Source: Bradyrhizobium sp. (GTDB lineage Bacteria > Pseudomonadota > Alphaproteobacteria > Rhizobiales > Xanthobacteraceae). From it: 22,218 nt of DNA. The notes below the pieces were generated by a model. The model did not search any database and had not been told where the DNA came from. It was given only the letters and a program-made list of their open reading frames with translations. The DNA is taken from the NCBI GenBank assembly GCA_028290305.1, contig JAQGKC010000276.1, forward strand, positions 1 to 22,218, read 5' to 3'. A program made the position numbers and the translations under genes. How positions within the stretch are numbered: the first letter of the stretch is position 1; every line of letters starts with the position of its first letter. This document shows, in pieces, positions 5,799 to 19,178 of this stretch.

Positions 5799-5997
5799 GG
5801 TGTGGCCTGTGGTTGCGCCAATGATGAACCTCAGCCTATGGCGTCATGGAAATCGCTACCAGCTTGCGCGGATCACGTTCCCTCCGGCACCGATCACAGG
5901 ATAGTGCAGCCATGCATCCAGCCCGGATTGAAGATTTGCTATTCGCCGCTATTTGCGGCTCATTGACCCGCCTGTCAGCCTCCCTGGAGCAAATGGA

Positions 5998-6876
5998 ATG
6001 ACCGACGAACCCGCCTACACGCCGCCGAAGGTATGGACCTGGAACAAGGAGAGCGGCGGCAAGTTCGCCAGCATCAACCGCCCGATCGCCGGACCGACGC
6101 ATGACAAGGAGCTGCCGGTCGGCCGCCATCCGCTGCAGCTTTATTCGTTGGCCACGCCGAACGGCCAGAAGGTCACCATCATGCTGGAAGAGCTGCTGGC
6201 GCTCGGCCATCGCGGCGCGGAGTACGATGCGTGGCTGATCCGGATCGACGGCAATCAGTTCGGAAGCGGCTTCGTGGAGGTCAATCCGAACTCCAAGATC
6301 CCGGCGCTGATGGACCGCAGCGGGCCCAAGCCGATCCGGGTGTTCGAATCCGGCGCGATCCTTCTGCATCTCGCCGAGAAATTCGGCGCCTTCCTGCCCA
6401 CCGACGCCGCCGGCCGCGCCGAATGCCTGTCATGGCTGTTCTGGCAGATGGGCAGCGCGCCTTATCTCGGCGGCGGCCTCGGCCACTTCTATGCCTACGC
6501 GCCGACCAAGATCGAATACGCCATCGACCGGTTCGCGATGGAGGTGAAGCGCCAGCTCGACGTGCTCGACCGCCGCCTCGCGGACAACGAATATCTGGCA
6601 GGCGACCAGTATTCGATCGCCGATATCGCGGTGTTTCCCTGGTACGGCGGCCTGGCGCAGGGCCTGCTCTACGGCGCGGGCGAATTTTTGAGTGTGCAGG
6701 ACTACAAGAACCTGCAGCGCTGGACCGCCGAAATCGCCAAGCGCCCCGCCGTGCAGCGCGGCCGCATGGTCAACCGCGTCTCGGGCGACCCCGCGCGTCA
6801 GTTGCACGAGCGCCATGACGCGAGCGATTTCGAGACCAGGACGGAGGACAAGATTGGGGAGCCGGCGAAGGTGTGA
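5998..6876 (+). CDS. yghU: Glutathione S-transferase family disulfide-bond oxidoreductase, YghU type
   Basis: The 292-residue protein matches E. coli YghU, as I remember it, almost end to end: PPKVWTWNKESGG near the start, GRHPLQLYSLATPNGQKVT (42-60), MLEELLALG, a long GFVEVNPNSKIPAL stretch, RVFESGAILLHLAEKFG, and the C-terminal signature LHERHDASDFETRTEDK. YghU binds two glutathiones and reduces disulfide bonds of small substrates; the TPNGQK loop (53-58) is the glutathione-binding site, with no catalytic Cys. It has an N-terminal extension before the thioredoxin-like domain, then the all-helical C-domain. The ATG at 5998 has GGAG 8 nt upstream and gives the family start; an upstream in-frame ATG (5953) is less likely. 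It converges with the Argonaute operon. Confidence 0.95.
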   Translation: MTDEPAYTPPKVWTWNKESGGKFASINRPIAGPTHDKELPVGRHPLQLYSLATPNGQKVTIMLEELLALGHRGAEYDAWLIRIDGNQFGSGFVEVNPNSKIPALMDRSGPKPIRVFESGAILLHLAEKFGAFLPTDAAGRAECLSWLFWQMGSAPYLGGGLGHFYAYAPTKIEYAIDRFAMEVKRQLDVLDRRLADNEYLAGDQYSIADIAVFPWYGGLAQGLLYGAGEFLSVQDYKNLQRWTAEIAKRPAVQRGRMVNRVSGDPARQLHERHDASDFETRTEDKIGEPAKV

Positions 6877-7058: not shown

Positions 7059-8606
7059 TTAAATATAATATTTGAACGGCTGACGGTCTGCGCCTTTTGC
7101 CGAACCCATCGTCAGCACCTCGCCAACCATATTGGCAAAGCGAACCGTTACAGGTAGTCCATCGTTATAATTGCAAGAATTATAATTGATTTTCGTCAAT
7201 CCCATAATGTCGCTGAGAATAGTTGGAAGCGGCGGCATGGCGGCCTTGCTCTTAAGAGCAGTGATAAAAAGCGGATTCGGCGTTTCAGGGCCGATATAGG
7301 TGTCGAGCTGAGGGACGTAACCGTTCGTCCAAAGGTAGGCGCTCTTGTTGTCAAGCAACATGGCAGTTCCGCGCAGGACCGGATAATCACCATCACGAAA
7401 TAGTTTGGTTTCTCCTGAAGTTCTACGTATGCGTACGCCAACGACATTAGTAGTCGAAGGGGCCGCAGCTTCAAACGCGCTCCATTCTTCGTCGTTGAAG
7501 TATGTCTGCCCATGGATGAAAAGCTCCTGAGGCGCAGAGCCGTGGAGTTCTCTGTAGGTCTCTAAAACCTTCCTGATCAGGTCTGTCGCGGCCGAAGCGT
7601 TGAGATGATAATCAAAATCGCCTTTCTTCCACGGGCCATTTGCGCCGCGGAACACGACACCATCTCCCTCGCTCAAAAACATCTGCGCGGCGCAACAGGC
7701 GTGATCCGACGCATCGCCGGGAAGATTCTTGTATACAAGCCCGATATAGCAAACCCCGGTGCGGATGCCCGATAGCTTCCAAGGTGGCTTTGGCTGCGTC
7801 TTGTAGTAGAGGCCGGTAGCTAGGTTCCAAGCGATGGTCGCTGCATCCTGAGTCCGGCGGAGCGGATATCCCGCTTTGTTTTTGAATTCGTCGGGAGCTA
7901 TCGTTGTTTCACGGAGGATCTGCGTTGGCGAGAGGGTTAGATATTCTGCTTTGACCTGCCGATGGAAATCGGGCGCGTCGTCGAAGACGTTCTCTTCGGG
8001 AAGGACCTCCTTCAGCAGTGGAAGGTCGGAACGGGTCTTCTTTCTCCTCGCGAAATCGCCAAGCTCCAGGGGCAAGCCTGTCCGGCGTGCATTTGGCTTG
8101 CATCGCTCAAAGATGATCTCCGGAACAACTAGAATCCACAAATCGACAGAGCGCTCATCATTTTCTCGGTGCCTCCGAGTTTTGTCGGCGTAGAGCTTTA
8201 CGACTTTCTTGACAGCTTCATGCAAATTCACGACGCGCGTCGCACCATCGATCGCCTTTGCGTCGAGCGGACATGCCACAAATTCAGCATCGTTCAAGGA
8301 AATTCCGAAAGCCTCTTCGAGCCCCGGAAAATTAACCAGATGCAGCCTGTCCTGCTTTTCAATTTTTCCCGGAGGGGGGACAGGGATGCCTTTCCTCAGT
8401 CGCCCGACCCAAGCACGGAAATAATTAATGCCCGTTGGGGTACCGATGACGCCAAGACGGACCTCCTTCGTCTTTTTTGCCTTTTCATGAGGACCATAGA
8501 GAAAGAGGCCGTCCTTCGGATGCGGTGTCGTTTGCTTGAAATTGAACTCCAGCAATGGCTCATTGAAATGTAACACCTGCAGGGAGCGCTCGGGAAAATT
8601 CGTCAT
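7059..8606 (-). CDS. Short prokaryotic Argonaute (MID-PIWI), SPARTA type, catalytically inactive
   Basis: This 515-residue protein has the length of short pAgos of SPARTA systems (about 500 aa), with MID (about 155-275) and PIWI (about 276-515) but no N or PAZ domain. PIWI marks are [15 protein letters not shown] (279-293), [13 protein letters not shown] (309-321), [15 protein letters not shown] (361-375), [20 protein letters not shown] (409-428), and the end motif [20 protein letters not shown]. It ends in KYYI, the hydrophobic C-terminus expected to face the guide 5' phosphate. The DEDX slicer residues are not in place: no Asp in the first PIWI strand, and IHGQT where active Agos have h-R-D-G. 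Such Agos bind guide RNA and target DNA and activate the partner TIR-APAZ. The ATG overlaps the TGA of the APAZ frame (ATGA), showing translational coupling. Composition is visibly AT-richer than flanking genes. Confidence 0.9.
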
Positions 8607-9265
8607 GGCTCTTCCTCCGGCTCAGGCCGTCCGAGCGTCGACGGATCGGCCTCTTCATCTTCGTCTTGCAAGACAGCCGGAAGAACAGTGCTGACAGGCG
8701 AGGAGAACAAAAGCGGGGATGCCTCAACGCGAACATTAGCGGCTTCACCAAGTTCGAGCAAAATGGCCGACCGTTCGCCAGACAGCACCTCCATAAAAGC
8801 AAGTAGTCGTCCATGCCACTGTCTGTTTCGCCATCCTTTGCAAACTGTACGCCGCAAACGGTGTTGCTTTTTGGCATCGTCGAGGGGAAGGTCAGCCTCG
8901 CCATCCAAAACCGGAGCGAACAACACACGGGATTTCAATTTGAAATGCGGGAAGGGCCAGAACGACGGGATCACGGAAACGCCGAATTGCCAAGCGTGAC
9001 CCTTCGCAATGTTTCGGAGCATTGAAGAACGCCGCTCACCTTGCGTTCCCCAAGCGATCTTCTTGCCGATCGTCGTTTGATCTTTCCCTACATGAAATCC
9101 GACCGCGTTTGAGTAGTGGTATTCAAGCAGCCCGCGTTTTTGACAATACCTATTCCATGCTTGGCGCAGCATAGAGTGCACAACATTCGACGCATCCTGC
9201 CGTTTAATATTTGCCGCCGCATATCCGACTTCCACGAACTCCGTGAGCGGGATTTGATGCTTCAA
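8603..9265 (-). CDS. APAZ domain, C-terminal part of a frameshifted TIR-APAZ protein
   Basis: This open frame continues the TIR-APAZ gene after a single-base frameshift. As a stand-alone frame it would start at TTG 9265 (220 aa), but coding-like sequence in this frame reaches back to about 9322, reading [19 protein letters not shown] before the body. Visible parts are the helical [20 protein letters not shown] and strand-rich [40 protein letters not shown] and VLFAPVLDG. The tail is acidic (DEDEEADPS... EPEEEP). APAZ is the analogue of Ago N/L domains: it binds the short pAgo and contacts nucleic acid. The TGA overlaps the pAgo ATG by 4 nt. Without frameshifting or a corrected base, this piece has no clear ribosome site of its own. 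The pairing with the upstream frame is strongly supported; identity as APAZ rests on context. Confidence 0.8.
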
Positions 9266-9281
9266 AACAAAGCGACCTACG

Positions 9282-10013
9282 CTACCGAAGATGGCGGTGA
9301 CTTCGTCTAAAAATCTGAAAAGTCACGAACCCCTGCTGCATGAGTGCAACCGGAAACGGGCTGGTCGGAGACACCTTCGCAAGGGAATCGCGATCGATAA
9401 CGCCGCTTGGCTCGAAATAGTTTATGAAATCCGGCGTTTCCGAAATGCGCAGCCAATTAGACGTTAAACGCTCCGGCTCATCCTTTAGAGCAATCGCGCC
9501 ACGACGGCGATAAAGCTCCCAGCTAGGTTGAATAACGATGCCATCGTGCCGACAGGGGACCTTTTGCCGTTTCAACGCTTCGAGAAGTTTTTCCAGACCT
9601 TCCGCCCATCCGCGAACGAAGTCGATATATTGAAGACCTCCGATACCAAAGAGCTTCTTGTACGGTCTGATCCGAAGCGGGATCACGAATCGTGGGTCTT
9701 TAAGCTCCTTTACGAGGTCCAAGCCGATTTCAATCTCTTCCTGCACCCCCGTAGCGGCGAGTGTCTCGTTGCTACAACACAACAACATCTTGCACGCCTG
9801 ATTTTGGAGCGTGGAAGTGATGATGGTTCGCCACCTGTCGCCCGGTTCTAACGTTCGAATATCCGTAAAGACCTTGTACCCTGCAGCCTCCAGCTTCGGG
9901 GCGAGCCAAAGCGCAAGCTCGTCATCACCCGGCGTCGCTTTGCTAAGAAAGACGACGTCCCGTTCGACCTGCACGATTTCTGGCTGAGCCGTTAGAGCAA
10001 CGCGTTCTTCCAC
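9282..10013 (-). CDS. TIR domain and start of APAZ (N-terminal part of frameshifted TIR-APAZ protein)
   Basis: This 243-codon frame starts at GTG 10013, with GAAGG seven bases upstream and an in-frame stop before it. Residues 18-150 are a TIR domain: VVFLSKATPGDDELALWLAP, AAGYKVFTDIRTLEPGDRW (43-61), then TLQNQACKMLLCCSNETLAA, and GVQEEIEIG (89-97), whose glutamates (E92/E93) are candidates for the NADase residue. In SPARTA the TIR domain oligomerises after target DNA recognition and degrades NAD+, killing or arresting the invaded cell. From about 155 the sequence enters the APAZ region (IVIQPSWELYRRRGAIALKD). The last residues, after MQQGFVTFQI, are out-of-frame sequence ending at a TAG. The two frames together span 1411 nt, which is 3n+1; removing one base gives 469 aa, the usual size. 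Confidence 0.85.
   Translation of the reverse strand: MEERVALTAQPEIVQVERDVVFLSKATPGDDELALWLAPKLEAAGYKVFTDIRTLEPGDRWRTIITSTLQNQACKMLLCCSNETLAATGVQEEIEIGLDLVKELKDPRFVIPLRIRPYKKLFGIGGLQYIDFVRGWAEGLEKLLEALKRQKVPCRHDGIVIQPSWELYRRRGAIALKDEPERLTSNWLRISETPDFINYFEPSGVIDRDSLAKVSPTSPFPVALMQQGFVTFQIFRRSHRHLR
9309..9313 (-). other. Frameshift site in TIR-APAZ gene (run of five T on coding strand)
   Basis: On the minus strand the first frame reads CAG ATT TTT AGA CGA; dropping one T gives CAG ATT TTA GAC GAA GTC, which continues directly into the second frame (Q-I-L-D-E-V-T-A-I-F-G-S-V-G). The second frame is closed by TGA at 9325-9323, so the shift must lie between about 9322 and 9284. The T run is the natural place for a one-base gain, by mutation, sequencing error or polymerase slippage. 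Confidence 0.75.
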
Positions 10014-10078
10014 TATTACGCCTTCGGCTGATCGGCCTTATCGGCTAAAGCAAACCCTGCCGCCGCCGGTCATCCGCC

Positions 10079-10912
10079 TCAGTCGGCGGAAGCCACCGGC
10101 GTGACCGTCGGCGCGCCCGGGTCGAATCCGAACAGCTCGACCAGGTACTTGTAATAGTCGGGCATCTTTTCCTTCAGGGTGTCGCGCGTCTTGGGATCGT
10201 GCACCGAGTCCTTGCCGGCCAGGAAAATGCTGGCGGTCACGGCAAAGAACTCCTTGTGGTTCATCAGCGCATAGGTGTCCTTTGGAAGCTGATCCTTTGC
10301 CTTGGCGTGGGCGTAGAAACCCTTGATGCCGAGGTTGTCGAAGCCGTTCGGCATCAGCTTGGCATGATAGGCATGGAGGAACTCGTGAAGCATGATCGGT
10401 TCCGGCGCATAGCGCATCATGTTCGGGCTCAGCATGATGACGCCACTCCCGGCATCGGCGGCCAGCTCGACCAGGTCCGGGTTGGTCCATTGCTGCTTGT
10501 CGTGATCCCAGGTTGTCAGTCCGCGCGATCCGTGGCGATTCCTGTCAGGCACCAAGGGGCCGTAACACGCGGCGCCGGCGCCTATCTCCATGCATGTCAT
10601 CTCGCTCGCGATGATCGGCACGGAATGAAAGAATTTTAGCACCCTCGGGCTAAATCCCGAGTTTTCAACGATGTCGAGCTGGCGCTTGAGATTGTCCTTG
10701 AGCGCGTCGAAATCCTTGCGTTCGGCATATTCCGACATGTCGAACGCGTAGCCGCGATAAGTCTCGAAGCCGGCCGGCGCCGACGGCGCCGTGGCGTTAT
10801 TGGAGGGCTCGACATTGGAGGGCTCGGCCTGGAGCACGCGCGGTGCCGCGCCGGCGGCATTGCAGCCGAGCGCAAAAACGATGATCGTTGAAAAGGCCAA
10901 TGCAACGCGCAT
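10079..10912 (-). CDS. Secreted HExxH metallopeptidase-like protein
   Basis: The 277-residue protein has a signal peptide (1 to about 22, LAFSTIIVFALGCNAAGAA); the Cys17 is not in a good lipobox. The core has HEFLH (176-180) within MLHEFLHAYHAKLMPNGFDN, and E221 in MNHKEFFAVTASIF 41 residues on. This is the arrangement of gluzincin-type zinc peptidases, with two His and a downstream Glu as ligands; members of this kind are loosely related to anthrax lethal factor-type domains. Two Cys in TCMEIGAGAACYG may pair in the periplasm. Its substrate is unknown. It lies 65 bp upstream of the TIR-APAZ start on the same strand, but its high-GC codon use matches the chromosome, not the Argonaute operon. 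The peptidase assignment is by motif only. Confidence 0.75.
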   Translation of the reverse strand: MRVALAFSTIIVFALGCNAAGAAPRVLQAEPSNVEPSNNATAPSAPAGFETYRGYAFDMSEYAERKDFDALKDNLKRQLDIVENSGFSPRVLKFFHSVPIIASEMTCMEIGAGAACYGPLVPDRNRHGSRGLTTWDHDKQQWTNPDLVELAADAGSGVIMLSPNMMRYAPEPIMLHEFLHAYHAKLMPNGFDNLGIKGFYAHAKAKDQLPKDTYALMNHKEFFAVTASIFLAGKDSVHDPKTRDTLKEKMPDYYKYLVELFGFDPGAPTVTPVASAD

Positions 10913-11149
10913 GATTATCCCCCTGCTGTCCGGTCGGCGGCCGCGAAAGACACGTCGTGGCTTTGCCGATAACCAGCGTTCGCACGTTACGTCATCGACG
11001 TTGCGGCACGGTTAATCTCCGCCGCGTAGCGACATCTCGGCCGTTAGCACGGAATTAACCGAACCGCATGACGCAGTGGTGGGCGGCTGATTTGGGGGAA
11101 TGTCCAGCCTCATTTGCAAAAATATTTCCATTCCCGCCCGACCCAAATC

Positions 11150-11690
11150 ACCACTACATCCCCCGCCGTCCCGTCCCTCAGAGGGGCGTATCGCGATCGT
11201 CACGGACGCGGGGTGGGATGCGGTGGACGCGGCAGCGTCGGGCGCGCGACGTGATGGCAGGGCGGGTCCTTTCGGGCCCGTGAGCGATCAAACGGCGAGC
11301 GGACGAACGGCGCTTTACACGGACGGCGAAGTCGTGTGGTCCTGGCATCCGTTGCTGGTGCTAAATCGGCGGAGGCGAAGTCGGCCCGACCGGGTCTGGC
11401 AAAACCTTAATCCGCCGATGACGGTGACAAGAAGAATTCGTCGCCGGGGAGAGCACGAAGGAAGCCGTTAAAACCATTGCGCAGGGAAGGCCGGGTGCTC
11501 CGGTGAACCTGTGGTGACTAACTCGTGTGCTTTCTACACTTTGCACGCGGGGCTGCGGGTGCAGCGGGCACCCGGCTTTCCCTGCGCCCTCTGATTTCCT
11601 GGGCGACCATTTCGTGCACAACCCGGGCGCCTCGCACCGCGGGATCGCGGGCGTGTACCCGCGTTAGCTCTTTGAAAATTGAATCCGGAA
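11150..11690. repeat. Non-coding region resembling a dispersed Bradyrhizobium-type repeat
   Basis: The gap 10913-11960 holds no gene I accept. About 11150-11690 gives short overlapping frames that look like proteins often mis-called in this group: plus strand starting at PSEGRIAIVTDAGWDAVDAA-like text, minus strand with KSEGAGKAGCPLHPQPRVQS. I know these as translations of a high-copy intergenic repeat, not real genes. Hairpins are plentiful (GGGTGCAGCGGGCACCC, GCGGGATCGCGGGCGTGTACCCGC). Boundaries are approximate. Between 10913 and 11150 I see only the upstream region of the metallopeptidase. Confidence 0.5.
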
Positions 11691-12470: not shown

Positions 12471-13916
12471 TCACACCTCTCTCGCATTCGAAAACGCAAA
12501 CGACGAGACCCGCCTTGTGTTCTCGTCCAGGATCAACGTTCGCGTGATCGGCGGCTCGGCGCGCTGGCTGCAGTTTTCGCGTTCGCAAAGCCGGCAGTTG
12601 ACACCGATCGGCGTGCCCTCGGCCTTTTCGAGGTCCATTCCGGTGGCATAGACCAGTTTTGTTGCGTGGCGGATTTCGCAGCCGAGACCGATCGCAAAAC
12701 GCGGTTGCGGCTGCGGATGCGGCGAGACCTGCCGCCGCACCATCTGTGCGATGGAAAAATACCTGGTCCCGTCGGGCAGTTCGATGATCTGCTTGAGCAG
12801 ACGGTCCGGCGTATCGAAGGTCGAATGCACGTTCCACAGCGGACAGGTGCCGCCGAATTTCGAAAACGGAAACGTACCCGAGGAAAATCGCTTGGAAACG
12901 TTGCCAGCGTTGTCGACGCGCAGCATGAAGAAAGGAATGCCGCGCGCATTGGGTCGCTGCAGCGTGGTCAGGCGATGACAGACCTGTTCGAACCCGGCAT
13001 TGAAGCGCTGCGCCAGCACATGGACATCGTAACTGAGAGATTCTGCGGCGGCGTGAAACGCCTGATAGGGCATCATGGTCGCGGCCGCGAAATAATTTGC
13101 CAGCGTAATCCGGTAGAGGCGGCGCGGTGTATCGTCGAGCGGGCCGGCGCGGTTGATGATGGTTTCGAAATGGCTCACGCATTCGGAAAGGCCGATCTGA
13201 AAGGCGAGCTGGAACGCGCGGCCGGCTCCATCCACCAGCTCCGAGACCAGCAATTGCCGACGATGGCGATCGAACCGCCGCAGCGTCTCGCGCATCACAT
13301 CGACCGGCATGATGCGGGTGACAACAGAATGCTTTTCGCGCAGGCGCGTCGCGAGTGCGGCGAACAGCCCTTCGGACGGCACGTTCAATTCGTCGCGCAG
13401 ATTTTCCGCGGCCTGTTCAAGTTCGGGGAAATAATTGCGATTGGCCTCGATCAGGTCGCGGACGCGCTCGATCGGATTGGCCTCGAAGCGAGCGCCCTCG
13501 TCGCGGTCGGCCATTTGCGCGGCCACCATGGTCTCGCCGCGGCGGGCCTCGGTGTAGGCGGCGTACAGCCGTTGCAGCGAATGCGTCACGCCGGGGCACA
13601 ATTCGGCGAGATCGCGCAATTCCTGCTTCGGCAGGTCGATCTGCCGGAACAGCGGATCGGAGAAGAACTCGTTCAGCTCGGCGAAAAACCGGTCCTCATC
13701 GGCGGTGGCGAGGTCGCGCAGATCGAGGTCATAGGTCTCCGCCAGCCGCAGCAGGATCTGCGCCGTCACCGGGCGCTGGTTGCGCTCGATCAGGTTGATG
13801 TAGCTCGGGGAAATCCCAAGGCCCTCGGCGATCTGGGTCTGCGACAACCCCAATTGCTGACGGATGCGCCGGAACCTCGGTCCGACAAACAGTTTTTTAC
13901 CGGAGTCTCCAGCCAT
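12471..13916 (-). CDS. XRE-family ScfR/RamB-like transcriptional regulator of the glyoxylate shunt
   Basis: The 481-residue protein has an N-terminal Cro/C1 helix-turn-helix (about 15-66; LGLSQTQIAEGLGISPSYIN, with recognition helix to IERNQRPVT). A long middle region follows with a degenerate IrrE/ImmA-like segment, then the C-terminal domain of short-chain fatty-acyl regulators with a cysteine cluster C441-x2-C444-x4-C449 (NCRLCERENC). Relatives include RamB and PrpR of actinobacteria, which control isocitrate lyase and methylcitrate genes and may sense acyl-CoA. Being divergent from aceA, it very probably regulates aceA and itself; this is inference from context. ATG 13916 is preferred over an upstream in-frame ATG (13991) because the latter adds translation of a repeat fragment. 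The 3' end abuts a repeat. Confidence 0.9.
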   Translation of the reverse strand: MAGDSGKKLFVGPRFRRIRQQLGLSQTQIAEGLGISPSYINLIERNQRPVTAQILLRLAETYDLDLRDLATADEDRFFAELNEFFSDPLFRQIDLPKQELRDLAELCPGVTHSLQRLYAAYTEARRGETMVAAQMADRDEGARFEANPIERVRDLIEANRNYFPELEQAAENLRDELNVPSEGLFAALATRLREKHSVVTRIMPVDVMRETLRRFDRHRRQLLVSELVDGAGRAFQLAFQIGLSECVSHFETIINRAGPLDDTPRRLYRITLANYFAAATMMPYQAFHAAAESLSYDVHVLAQRFNAGFEQVCHRLTTLQRPNARGIPFFMLRVDNAGNVSKRFSSGTFPFSKFGGTCPLWNVHSTFDTPDRLLKQIIELPDGTRYFSIAQMVRRQVSPHPQPQPRFAIGLGCEIRHATKLVYATGMDLEKAEGTPIGVNCRLCERENCSQRAEPPITRTLILDENTRRVSSFAFSNAREV

Positions 13917-13942
13917 GAGCGTTTTCCCACGAGTTCTGACTA

Positions 13943-13969
13943 CCTCGCCCCGCTTGCGGGGAGAGGGAG
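13943..13969. repeat. Short fragment of the same palindromic repeat family
   Basis: CCTCGCCCCGCTTGCGGGGA followed by GAGGGAG is the end-arm segment of the 150-bp repeats, here in the regulator-aceA promoter region and just upstream of the regulator start. Confidence 0.7.
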
Positions 13970-14020
13970 CTATCTCGACGTATTGTGACAAAAATTACAA
14001 AATAACATCTATTACAAGTC

Positions 14021-14035
14021 GTGATGTTACATCAC
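14021..14035. promoter_or_regulatory. Perfect 15-bp palindrome, candidate operator between regulator and aceA
   Basis: GTGATGT-T-ACATCAC is a perfect palindrome with a one-base centre, in an AT-rich stretch (13981-14045) of the otherwise GC-rich divergent gap. AACATC at 14004-14009 and GATGTT at 14023-14028 make a second, overlapping inverted pair. It lies about 105 bp from each start codon. Binding by the divergent ScfR-like regulator is inference. Confidence 0.5.
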
Positions 14036-14140
14036 ATCACCATTCGATGACAAGCCATCTAGGCGAAATCAGCAGTTTAGCGTTTAGCTCCTATCACGCG
14101 TTTCGCAATGCACTGTCACGAATGTCGACTGGAGAACATG

Positions 14141-15448
14141 ATGACGAAGACCTTTGAACAGCTGGTTCCCGCGCCCGCAGGCCGTTTCGATGGCATCAGC
14201 CGTCCCTACAGCCCGGCCGAGGTAGAGAAGCTGCGCGGCTCCGTGCCGATCGCCTATACGCTGGCCGAGAAGGGCGCCAATCGGCTCTGGGAGTCGCTGA
14301 AGAAAGAGCCCTACGTCAATTCGCTGGGCGCCGTCACCGGCAACCAGGCGATGCAGCAGGCCCGCGCCGGTCTGCCCGCGATCTATCTGTCGGGCTGGCA
14401 GGTTGCCGCCGACGCCAACACCGCGGGCGCGATGTATCCCGACCAGAGCCTTTATCCGGCCAACGCCGGACCCGAACTGTGCCGCCGCATCAACCGCACC
14501 TTCCAGCGTGCCGACCAGATCGAGCACTCCGAAGGCGGCGCCAAGATCGACTGGTTCGTGCCTATCGTGGCTGACGCCGAAGCGGGCTTCGGCGGCCCGT
14601 TGAACTCGTTCGAAATCATGAAGGCCTATATCGAGGCGGGCGCGGCCGGCGTTCACTTCGAGGACCAGCTCGCGTCCGAGAAGAAGTGCGGCCACATGGG
14701 CGGCAAGGTGCTGATCCCGACCGCAGCCCATGAGCGCAACCTGATCGCGGCGCGTCTGGCCGCCGACGTCTGCGGCACGCCGACTTTTGTGTTGGCGCGC
14801 ACCGATGCGGAAAGTGCAAAACTGATCACCGCTGATGTCGACGAGCGCGATCGCGAATTCATCACCGGCGAGCGCACCGCAGAAGGCTTTTTCCGCCTCA
14901 AGCCCGGCACGGGTCTCGCCCATTGCATCAAGCGCGGCATCGCATTTGCCAAGTACGCTGACTTGTTGTGGTGGGAGACCTCAACGCCGAACCTCAAAGA
15001 GGCAAAAGAATTCGCCGAGGCCGTGCAGAAGGTCTATCCCGGCAAGATGCTGGCCTACAATTGTTCGCCGTCGTTCAACTGGGAAGCCAACATCGACAAG
15101 GCGACCATTGCCAAGTTCCAGGGCGAAATCGGCGCGATGGGCTACAAATTCCAGTTCGTGACGCTGGCGGGTTTCCACTCGCTCAACCACGGCATGTTCG
15201 AACTGGCGCGCGGCTACAAGGCCGAAGGCATGGCGGCTTATTCCCGCCTGCAGCAGGCCGAGTTCGCCTCGGAAAAGCACGGCTATTCGGCGACGCGCCA
15301 TCAGCGCGAAGTCGGCACCGGCTATTTCGATCTGGTGTCGACCACCATCACCGGCGGCACCTCATCGACGACAGCGCTGCACGACTCGACCGAAGCCGCG
15401 CAGTTCAAGGCGCACGGTTCGGACATCCACGTTCAAGCGGCTGAATAG
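14141..15448 (+). CDS. aceA: Isocitrate lyase
   Basis: The 435-residue enzyme splits isocitrate into succinate and glyoxylate, the first step of the glyoxylate shunt needed for growth on acetate and fatty acids. The catalytic signature KKCGHMGGK is at 181-189, with nucleophile C183. Other family marks are [33 protein letters not shown] (81-93), the metal and substrate region [10 protein letters not shown] (143-152), HFEDQL and YNCSPSFNW. The length matches the short bacterial type (about 430 aa). ATG 14141 has GGAG six bases upstream; ATG 14138 and an in-frame ATG at 14108 are less likely. The gene is followed at 12 bp by a DUF4170 gene and then a terminator, so the two form an operon. Confidence 0.97.
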
Positions 15449-17971: not shown

Positions 17972-18032
17972 GAACTGCCTGTGCTACTAATCACGTCCAT
18001 CGCGTCACCATGTGCTGTGCGACGGAAACAAA

Positions 18033-19178
18033 ATGAAACAGTTGAAGAGCCTCTGCGGCTTCGCATGCTTTCTGGTTCTGGTCAGCAACGTCTGGGCGAT
18101 GTCGCGCTGGAGCGAAAGCCGGGGAGTTTACGACGATATCTGCTATTTGCGGCAGGCTCATCTGTTTCAGAGATTTGGGCTTGGTGATCTCGACACCAAT
18201 ATTTTCCGTGATGACGATCACTATCTCGCTTCGAAATTGAAGGAGATAGGTTTTCCGACCTGGAACGATCCGACGACGGCTCCCTGTCATACCTTGATGC
18301 CGGCGACGGAAAAGCGGGTGATGCAATATCCGCCGGGCACCGGCTTTGTGCTGGCGCTGTTTCCCTCCGGATTTCAGTTGATACCGCTTTACGTTCTGTC
18401 GACGACTGTCGTTTTCGGCTTTGCGTTGCTTGCAATTTCTTACGCACGCTCCAGGTCCGCGATTTTGCTCGCGGCCGCCTTTGGGTGCTTGGCCATTTAC
18501 CTGATGATCAATCCCACCAAGGCGAGCTATTCGATGGCGCCTACCATGGTGATTTGCGCTCTCGCCGGTTTTGTCACGGCAAGACTTTTTGCAGCACCAC
18601 AGCGGTACAACCGGCTTGTTTTGTCGGGACTCGTTGGGCTCCTGATTGGCGTGGCGGTCGATTTCCGATTGTCGAATTTGTTTCTCGCATCGGGATATGT
18701 TTTGTTTTTCCTGGGTTCATTTTTTTCATCCCGGAAAATCGAGACGGTTCTGCAAGGCGCTTTGTTCGCAGCTGCATTGTTAGCGGGGATGGTGCCGACC
18801 ATGCTCGCGAACGCGATAAATGCCGGCAGCCCGCTCACCACGACGTATGGAGGTGTTGATGTGACGCCGCCTGATTTCAGCTTTGGCATCATCTGGCGCT
18901 ACGTCGTTGACATGCAATTCGTTCTGCTCGTGCTCGCCGGTGCGTGGACGGCCTTGATCTTGCGGTGGCGTCGCGAGCGCGCCATCAGACGAACAGCTCT
19001 TGTCACGGTTGGAAATCTGCTGGTGAATCTGGCCTTCTTCATGAGCCATCCCATCTTCACGCCTTATTATACCATCCCTGTCGCCATGCTTTCATTGTGG
19101 AGTTTGCTGTTTGCCTCACTGATACAGCCGGCGGAAGCAGTGGAAGGTGGCCTTCTTGAGCAGGCGGCAAGAGCTTGA
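18033..19178 (+). CDS. Polytopic membrane protein, GT-C glycosyltransferase-like
   Basis: The 381-residue protein has one membrane helix at the N-terminus (CGFACFLVLVSNVWAM), then a soluble stretch of about 80 residues with YDDICYLRQAHLF and an acidic NIFRDDDHYL. About eight to nine further helices follow (for example GFVLALFPSGFQLIPLYVLS, AILLAAAFGCLAIYLM, ALFAAALLAGMVPTMLANAI, FVLLVLAGAWTALIL). A loop near the N-terminus with acidic residues, followed by many helices, is the build of GT-C enzymes that take sugars from polyprenyl-phosphate carriers; a DPM1-like enzyme that could make such a carrier is encoded 43 bp downstream. The function is inferred from this pairing. ATG 18033 has GGAA at about 6 nt. 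It is somewhat AT-richer than its neighbours. Confidence 0.75.
   Translation: MKQLKSLCGFACFLVLVSNVWAMSRWSESRGVYDDICYLRQAHLFQRFGLGDLDTNIFRDDDHYLASKLKEIGFPTWNDPTTAPCHTLMPATEKRVMQYPPGTGFVLALFPSGFQLIPLYVLSTTVVFGFALLAISYARSRSAILLAAAFGCLAIYLMINPTKASYSMAPTMVICALAGFVTARLFAAPQRYNRLVLSGLVGLLIGVAVDFRLSNLFLASGYVLFFLGSFFSSRKIETVLQGALFAAALLAGMVPTMLANAINAGSPLTTTYGGVDVTPPDFSFGIIWRYVVDMQFVLLVLAGAWTALILRWRRERAIRRTALVTVGNLLVNLAFFMSHPIFTPYYTIPVAMLSLWSLLFASLIQPAEAVEGGLLEQAARA

Follow-up and report, generated by a model that had tools for sequence, protein, structure and literature searches.

A probably inactivated SPARTA operon with a frame-broken TIR-APAZ gene on a Bradyrhizobium-like contig

Three frames on the minus strand of a 22,218-nucleotide stretch of Bradyrhizobium sp. 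DNA (contig JAQGKC010000276.1; hereafter the window) raise the question of whether a working SPARTA operon is encoded there, and from how many genes it is built. A first-pass annotation, made from the DNA letters alone, had described a TIR frame, an APAZ-like frame and a short Argonaute in SPARTA-like order. All three frames were found in that order on one strand, and the 4-nt ATGA in which the APAZ frame ends and the Argonaute frame begins was located at 8606-8603 (Table 1). The frame of the APAZ piece stays open slightly upstream of its listed TTG. The genes are overlapping or adjacent on the same strand with TIR-APAZ first, as in SPARTA. Repeat and promoter/terminator scans gave nothing informative.

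Table 1. Coordinates of the features of the locus within the window
Feature	Position	Strand	Detail or basis
TIR piece and start of APAZ, broken TIR-APAZ gene	9282..10013	-	243 aa, GTG start
APAZ piece, broken TIR-APAZ gene	8603..9265	-	220 aa, listed start TTG
Short Argonaute (MID-PIWI)	7059..8606	-	515 aa, uninterrupted
ATGA shared by the APAZ stop codon and the Argonaute start codon	8603..8606	-	sequence
GGAGG, likely Argonaute ribosome-binding site	8614..8618	-	sequence, by eye
Reading-frame change, approximate	9300..9320	-	translations compared with L001 and L002
Shared cassette, the sole stretch of the window aligning with L001-L003	7063..10017	.	alignment

The 243-aa product was matched to Pfam TIR_2 at 3.2e-21, a strong hit for the frame on which the TIR assignment had been staked. 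Pfam returned TIR only for this piece, with no N-terminal nuclease domain, and there is no room upstream for an Mrr/PD-(D/E)XK domain, the preceding gene stopping at 10079 and the TIR frame starting at 10013. Glu93 of the TIR piece aligned with Glu77 of 8fex_A, so that the catalytic glutamate is present; E77A is described as a catalytic mutant of the SPARTA TIR in the text available from PMC10474274. Both smaller pieces were matched to the PADLOC TIR-APAZ model PDLC02400, the TIR piece over positions 179-401 (3.1e-89) and the APAZ piece over positions 418-636 (4.3e-105). In the PDB the TIR piece matched the TIR end of solved TIR-APAZ chains and the 220-aa piece their APAZ end (best 6.5e-17), which bears out the description of the latter as APAZ-like.

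The 515-aa product was proposed to be a MID-PIWI protein that a PIWI profile should recognise. A Pfam search returned no family at E<=1 and an NCBIfam search none at 0.001. The assignment was carried instead by the PADLOC short-pAgo model PDLC02378 (3.5e-208) and by the SPARTA Argonautes of the PDB, which were matched over residues 10-515 (8j8h_A 4.4e-108, 8ifk_B 5e-108, 8qlo_B 1e-107, 8fex_B 1.8e-99); on these PADLOC and PDB matches the protein is a short MID-PIWI Argonaute of the kind found in SPARTA. The matches of the TIR, APAZ and Argonaute pieces are far beyond chance.

A fused TIR-APAZ protein beside the Argonaute, as is usual for SPARTA, was not found in the window: the two domains are adjacent and lie in two frames. 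On the alignments, the TIR and APAZ pieces are a single TIR-APAZ gene split by a frame change and not two genes, since both match consecutive parts of PDLC02400 and the nearest relatives have a single frame. Bradyrhizobium vignae (L001) and Bradyrhizobium sp. 132 (L002) each encode TIR-APAZ as a single protein, 470 aa long in the former and 469 aa in the latter. With the L001 protein as query, and lengths of 0.55-1.75x the query admitted, 1066 proteins were obtained, the best 120 of them of 394-537 aa. Twenty-four full-length or nearly full-length TIR-APAZ relatives were compared with the window pieces; among the matches listed the closest of the 24, P0124 and P0125, were uninterrupted, with identities of 93% and 91%, respectively, to the TIR piece and of 91% and 90% to the APAZ piece. 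With borders taken from Crenotalea SPARTA (linker 139-160, APAZ 161-420, in the text available from PMC11156904), the first product would keep the TIR, the linker and only the start of the APAZ. The SPARTA-like layout thus holds as to family, on the PADLOC and PDB matches, and fails as to separate TIR and APAZ genes, these being one gene in the relatives and frame-broken here. Because its domains sit in two frames, the locus was filed as SPARTA by descent with a disrupted effector, which retains the descent and drops the intact operon of the earlier description.

The Argonaute was compared with Crenotalea SPARTA, for which the available text of PMC11156904 names 16 Argonaute residues as touching guide or target. 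These were counted by eye on the 8ifk_B alignment, whose 8ifk_B letters fit the numbering of that text. Eleven of the 16 are identical in the window (His207, Lys211, Arg225, Thr228, Arg243, Lys286, Lys395, Asn439, Asn466, Asn468 and Arg481) and five differ (Arg72, Lys287, Lys325, Arg362 and Arg364; Crenotalea numbering), so details of nucleic-acid binding may differ. In the pocket for the guide 5'-phosphate, as given in the same text, the side chains of His207, Lys211 and Asn468 are all kept. The PIWI domain would be expected to lack the DEDX catalytic tetrad, given its close kinship with the solved SPARTA Argonautes.

According to the available text of PMC10474274 and PMC11156904, SPARTA stays inactive as long as it has not bound both guide RNA and target DNA; on activation four heterodimers join through their TIR domains, and the TIR then hydrolyses NAD+. 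An intact member of the present clade would, by analogy with the other members described in the literature, hold guide RNA in a short Argonaute that pairs with APAZ. Once complementary invader DNA is bound, four heterodimers would come together via TIR, and the hydrolysis of NAD+ by TIR would stop the cell. In the window copy the Argonaute is whole and the TIR appears to be cut off inside the APAZ by one frame change. With the TIR severed from the sensor, recognition of a target should no longer lead the TIR domains to assemble. Those steps that depend on a link between TIR and APAZ would be expected to fail, so the copy as read is most likely inactive; it is probably non-functional, and its depletion of NAD+ is doubtful.

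The age of the break was judged from the remainder of the gene. No further stop was found within the TIR piece or the APAZ piece. Against L001 and L002 the dN of both pieces was 0.085-0.098, values not above those between L001 and L002 themselves (0.105 for TIR, 0.155 for APAZ). The three window dN/dS ratios that could be computed were 0.028-0.055, the remaining dS being saturated. The low ratios and the lack of excess amino-acid change indicate that TIR-APAZ was under purifying selection until very recently. Sequence quality was judged by comparing open frames of the related chromosome G020 with the window; 13 of them were accepted as true genes by identity and strand, and 13/13 of these syntenic genes match the window without a frame break. 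A further match, 4660_5613_+ (57-68% identical), is split between frames but lies opposite better-conserved genes on the other strand.

The break is unshared by the nearest relatives, is accompanied by no second lesion and no excess change, and has intact neighbours, which together make very recent inactivation the most likely explanation. The preferred reading, at a probability of about 0.6, is that the window holds a horizontally acquired SPARTA of a TIR-only alphaproteobacterial subclade, on a Bradyrhizobium-like chromosome, with a TIR-APAZ gene that would have been broken very recently. A broken gene otherwise free of decay is also what a single sequencing error would look like, and the main rival reading, less likely than inactivation, puts the frame change down to faulty sequencing or assembly, in a strain that has an ordinary intact SPARTA depleting NAD+ on sensing invader DNA. 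The lesion is alone, both pieces are otherwise conserved with no excess amino-acid change, and the closest relatives show no interruption. Against an error stand the 13/13 syntenic genes taken as true, in none of which a break occurs; errors are therefore uncommon here and the window is not error-rich, though it may contain a single one. Relatives moreover carry independent breaks in TIR-APAZ, namely in-frame TAG codons at different places in L005 and L006 and a shifted frame in L023, whose genome is complete.

Very recent inactivation also has to be set against a break that the cell tolerates, through programmed ribosomal frame shifting or through two separately produced proteins that reassemble with the Argonaute, the system remaining functional. 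Conservation of both pieces would fit this, as would truncated relatives, four of whose five best matches (P0241, P0242, P0244 and P0245) are altered near the same place; the sequences of those truncated relatives differ among themselves after the break, the nearest relatives of the window need no frame change, and no ribosome-binding site was evident by eye before the TTG of the APAZ piece. A search with the TIR piece gave 248 proteins of 134-425 aa under the length rule, and 118 of the best 120 were examined, P0139 and P0142 being left out since they come from the search with the L001 protein. An unrelated C-terminal tail was found in 66/118, among the matches listed, with break points spread over reference residues 160-400; this spread speaks against a shared or programmed frame change, and a tolerated break is very improbable. 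The mode of the break points lay at reference residues 220-239 (16/66), and no hot spot is claimed because the end of the query itself biases the mode and many of the entries are short metagenome contigs. Scarcely credible is a reading in which the Argonaute outlasts its effector to serve a separate function, such as binding invader DNA in guide-loaded form with no NADase output. A whole Argonaute does accompany a broken TIR-APAZ in the window, L005, L006 and L023, but the reverse is seen in L030 and L032, so that there is no bias, and the break in the window seems so recent that retention carries no information.

The frequency of disruption was counted in 38 loci, in 31 of which both genes are uninterrupted. 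TIR-APAZ is broken and the Argonaute whole in three (L005, which is additionally cut by its contig end, L006 and L023), and the Argonaute is broken and TIR-APAZ whole in two (L030 and L032). Both genes are damaged in L033, and L038 has pieces of Argonaute with no TIR-APAZ match. Decay that begins with the effector was considered, and at 3/38 against 2/38 no bias is claimed. In L030 (Sphingomonas faeni ALB2, 9001-11601) the Argonaute is split by ∼1 kb of extra DNA (10290-11335), perhaps an insertion element.

Among 265 Bradyrhizobium genomes, nine hold a whole Argonaute at 62-88% identity and three hold pieces or a remnant (G082, G100 and G034). TIR-APAZ is uninterrupted over the part held in seven of the nine and contains a TAG in the other two (G249 and G041, the genomes of L005 and L006). 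Disruption was thus found in 5/12 Bradyrhizobium genomes in which an Argonaute, whole or as remains, reaches ∼60% identity or more, and the window would be the sixth of 13; more distant Argonautes and a second Argonaute fragment in G001 were left out of this count. That fragment, in the genome of L001 (C131:1081-1812), is 55% identical over residues 272-515. Of 397 genomes from the order, 15 contained a TIR-APAZ match with an E-value no higher than 1e-20 and 16 an Argonaute match no higher than 1e-40. Eight of these genomes had a best TIR-APAZ E-value <1e-80; seven were uninterrupted and one, G628, was broken, this being the genome of L023 by its coordinates. G628 carries two separate TIR-APAZ-like loci (L118, L126, L127 and L128), both frame-broken, the second partial and in two frames. 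The disruption figure, as a raw count, is high in Bradyrhizobium and not in the order, and frequent loss in general is opposed by the seven of eight uninterrupted genomes. It seems unlikely that SPARTA cassettes of the window kind are acquired and silenced unusually often in Bradyrhizobium; if they were, the operon would be a gain-and-silence element on account of the cost of its NADase trigger.

The cassette lies between a glutathione S-transferase gene (GST; 5953-6876, plus strand, Pfam) and a metallopeptidase-like gene (10079-10912, minus strand). Both flanks align with chromosome G020, at 92% amino-acid identity for the GST and 84-85% for the metallopeptidase-like gene, and the window Argonaute groups with those of L002, L001 and L003 at a support of 99/99 in a tree of 38 rows. 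The tree of short pAgos that had been proposed supports, together with the flanks, the suggested Bradyrhizobium-type host. In G020 the GST and metallopeptidase-like genes are separated by 8.3 kb in which other genes lie, and a clean empty site for the cassette was not found there; the Argonaute matches of G020 lie elsewhere and are only 31-32% identical. The GC content of the cassette is 52-54%, with 60-65% in the adjoining windows; low GC is not peculiar to the cassette, a distant window (18001-19000) having 54.7%. No match was found in the phage records searched and none was confirmed in the viral contigs searched, and 101/72,556 plasmid records matched, the best at 67% identity. A PADLOC scan of 15 window proteins recognised no defence system outside the cassette, the hits there being generic ones of methyltransferase, regulator and phosphoesterase type.

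Several other features of the window were recorded. All or part of 1944-2046 matches three places in G020 at 82-91%, as a short interspersed repeat, and 452-569 matches one of the same three places at 74%. The metallopeptidase-like protein has an HEFLH stretch and sub-threshold Pfam matches to ATLF (9e-4) and Peptidase_M90 (2.4e-3); being present in 54/98 Bradyrhizobium genomes, its gene is taken as an ordinary accessory gene. Genes for a RamB-like regulator (NCBIfam NF038139, 1.9e-133, under its cut-off) and an isocitrate lyase (Pfam ICL, 2.2e-94) are divergent at 12471-15448, a pair belonging to ordinary acetate metabolism.

The SPARTA family is already known, and the window locus is a further, probably inactivated member. 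A literature search for TIR-APAZ together with frameshift found no such report among the matches listed. An apparent set of three genes is here resolved into a SPARTA operon of two genes, that of the effector being broken, which corrects a plausible misreading; a simple count of presence and absence would score the operon as active. The locus adds a data point on the loss of costly abortive-infection systems.

In the Argonaute tree the TIR-only group of the window, L002, L001 and L003 is joined, at weak support (83/63), to a group of 27 rows. In 24 of these the TIR is preceded by an N-terminal extension; one row has a partial extension and two rows are cut. Over the 38 loci, with extension length measured stop to stop, an extension of ∼165 aa or more was found in 26, none of note in eight and a partial one in one, three not being classed. 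A Pfam Mrr-type nuclease domain was detected in 4/4 of the extended proteins that were scanned; in two it exceeded the curated cut-off and in two it fell just short of it. In L029 (Gluconacetobacter diazotrophicus PA1 5) the TIR is preceded by a shortened nuclease part, with a PADLOC match from model position 133 and no Mrr match. The Argonautes of L013 (a Sphingomonas isolate) and L017 (an uncultured bacterium) are identical and that of L015 (a Tardiphaga MAG) is nearly so, reflecting either recent transfer across orders or MAG mis-binning.

An architecture in which PD-(D/E)XK is fused to TIR-APAZ has been known since Makarova et al., 2009 (in the text available from PMC2743648). These Nuclease-TIR-APAZ/short pAgo systems (PADLOC REase-TIR-PNTD1-PNTD2) have TIR and APAZ domains homologous to those of the window and Argonautes 58-70% identical to its own, in many Alphaproteobacteria; they differ in their Mrr-like N-terminal domain, of which the window has none. 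The solved SPARTA systems (PDB 8ifk, 8fex and others), a family placed in clade S2A in the available text of PMC11156904, comprise the same two proteins in the same order, whereas in the window TIR-APAZ is frame-broken and 5/16 of the named Argonaute contacts differ. Closest are the cassettes of L001 and L002, with 88% each for the Argonaute, 84% and 86% for the TIR piece and 84% each for the APAZ piece; like the window they have no N-terminal extension of note, and unlike it they have an uninterrupted TIR-APAZ frame and different flanking DNA.
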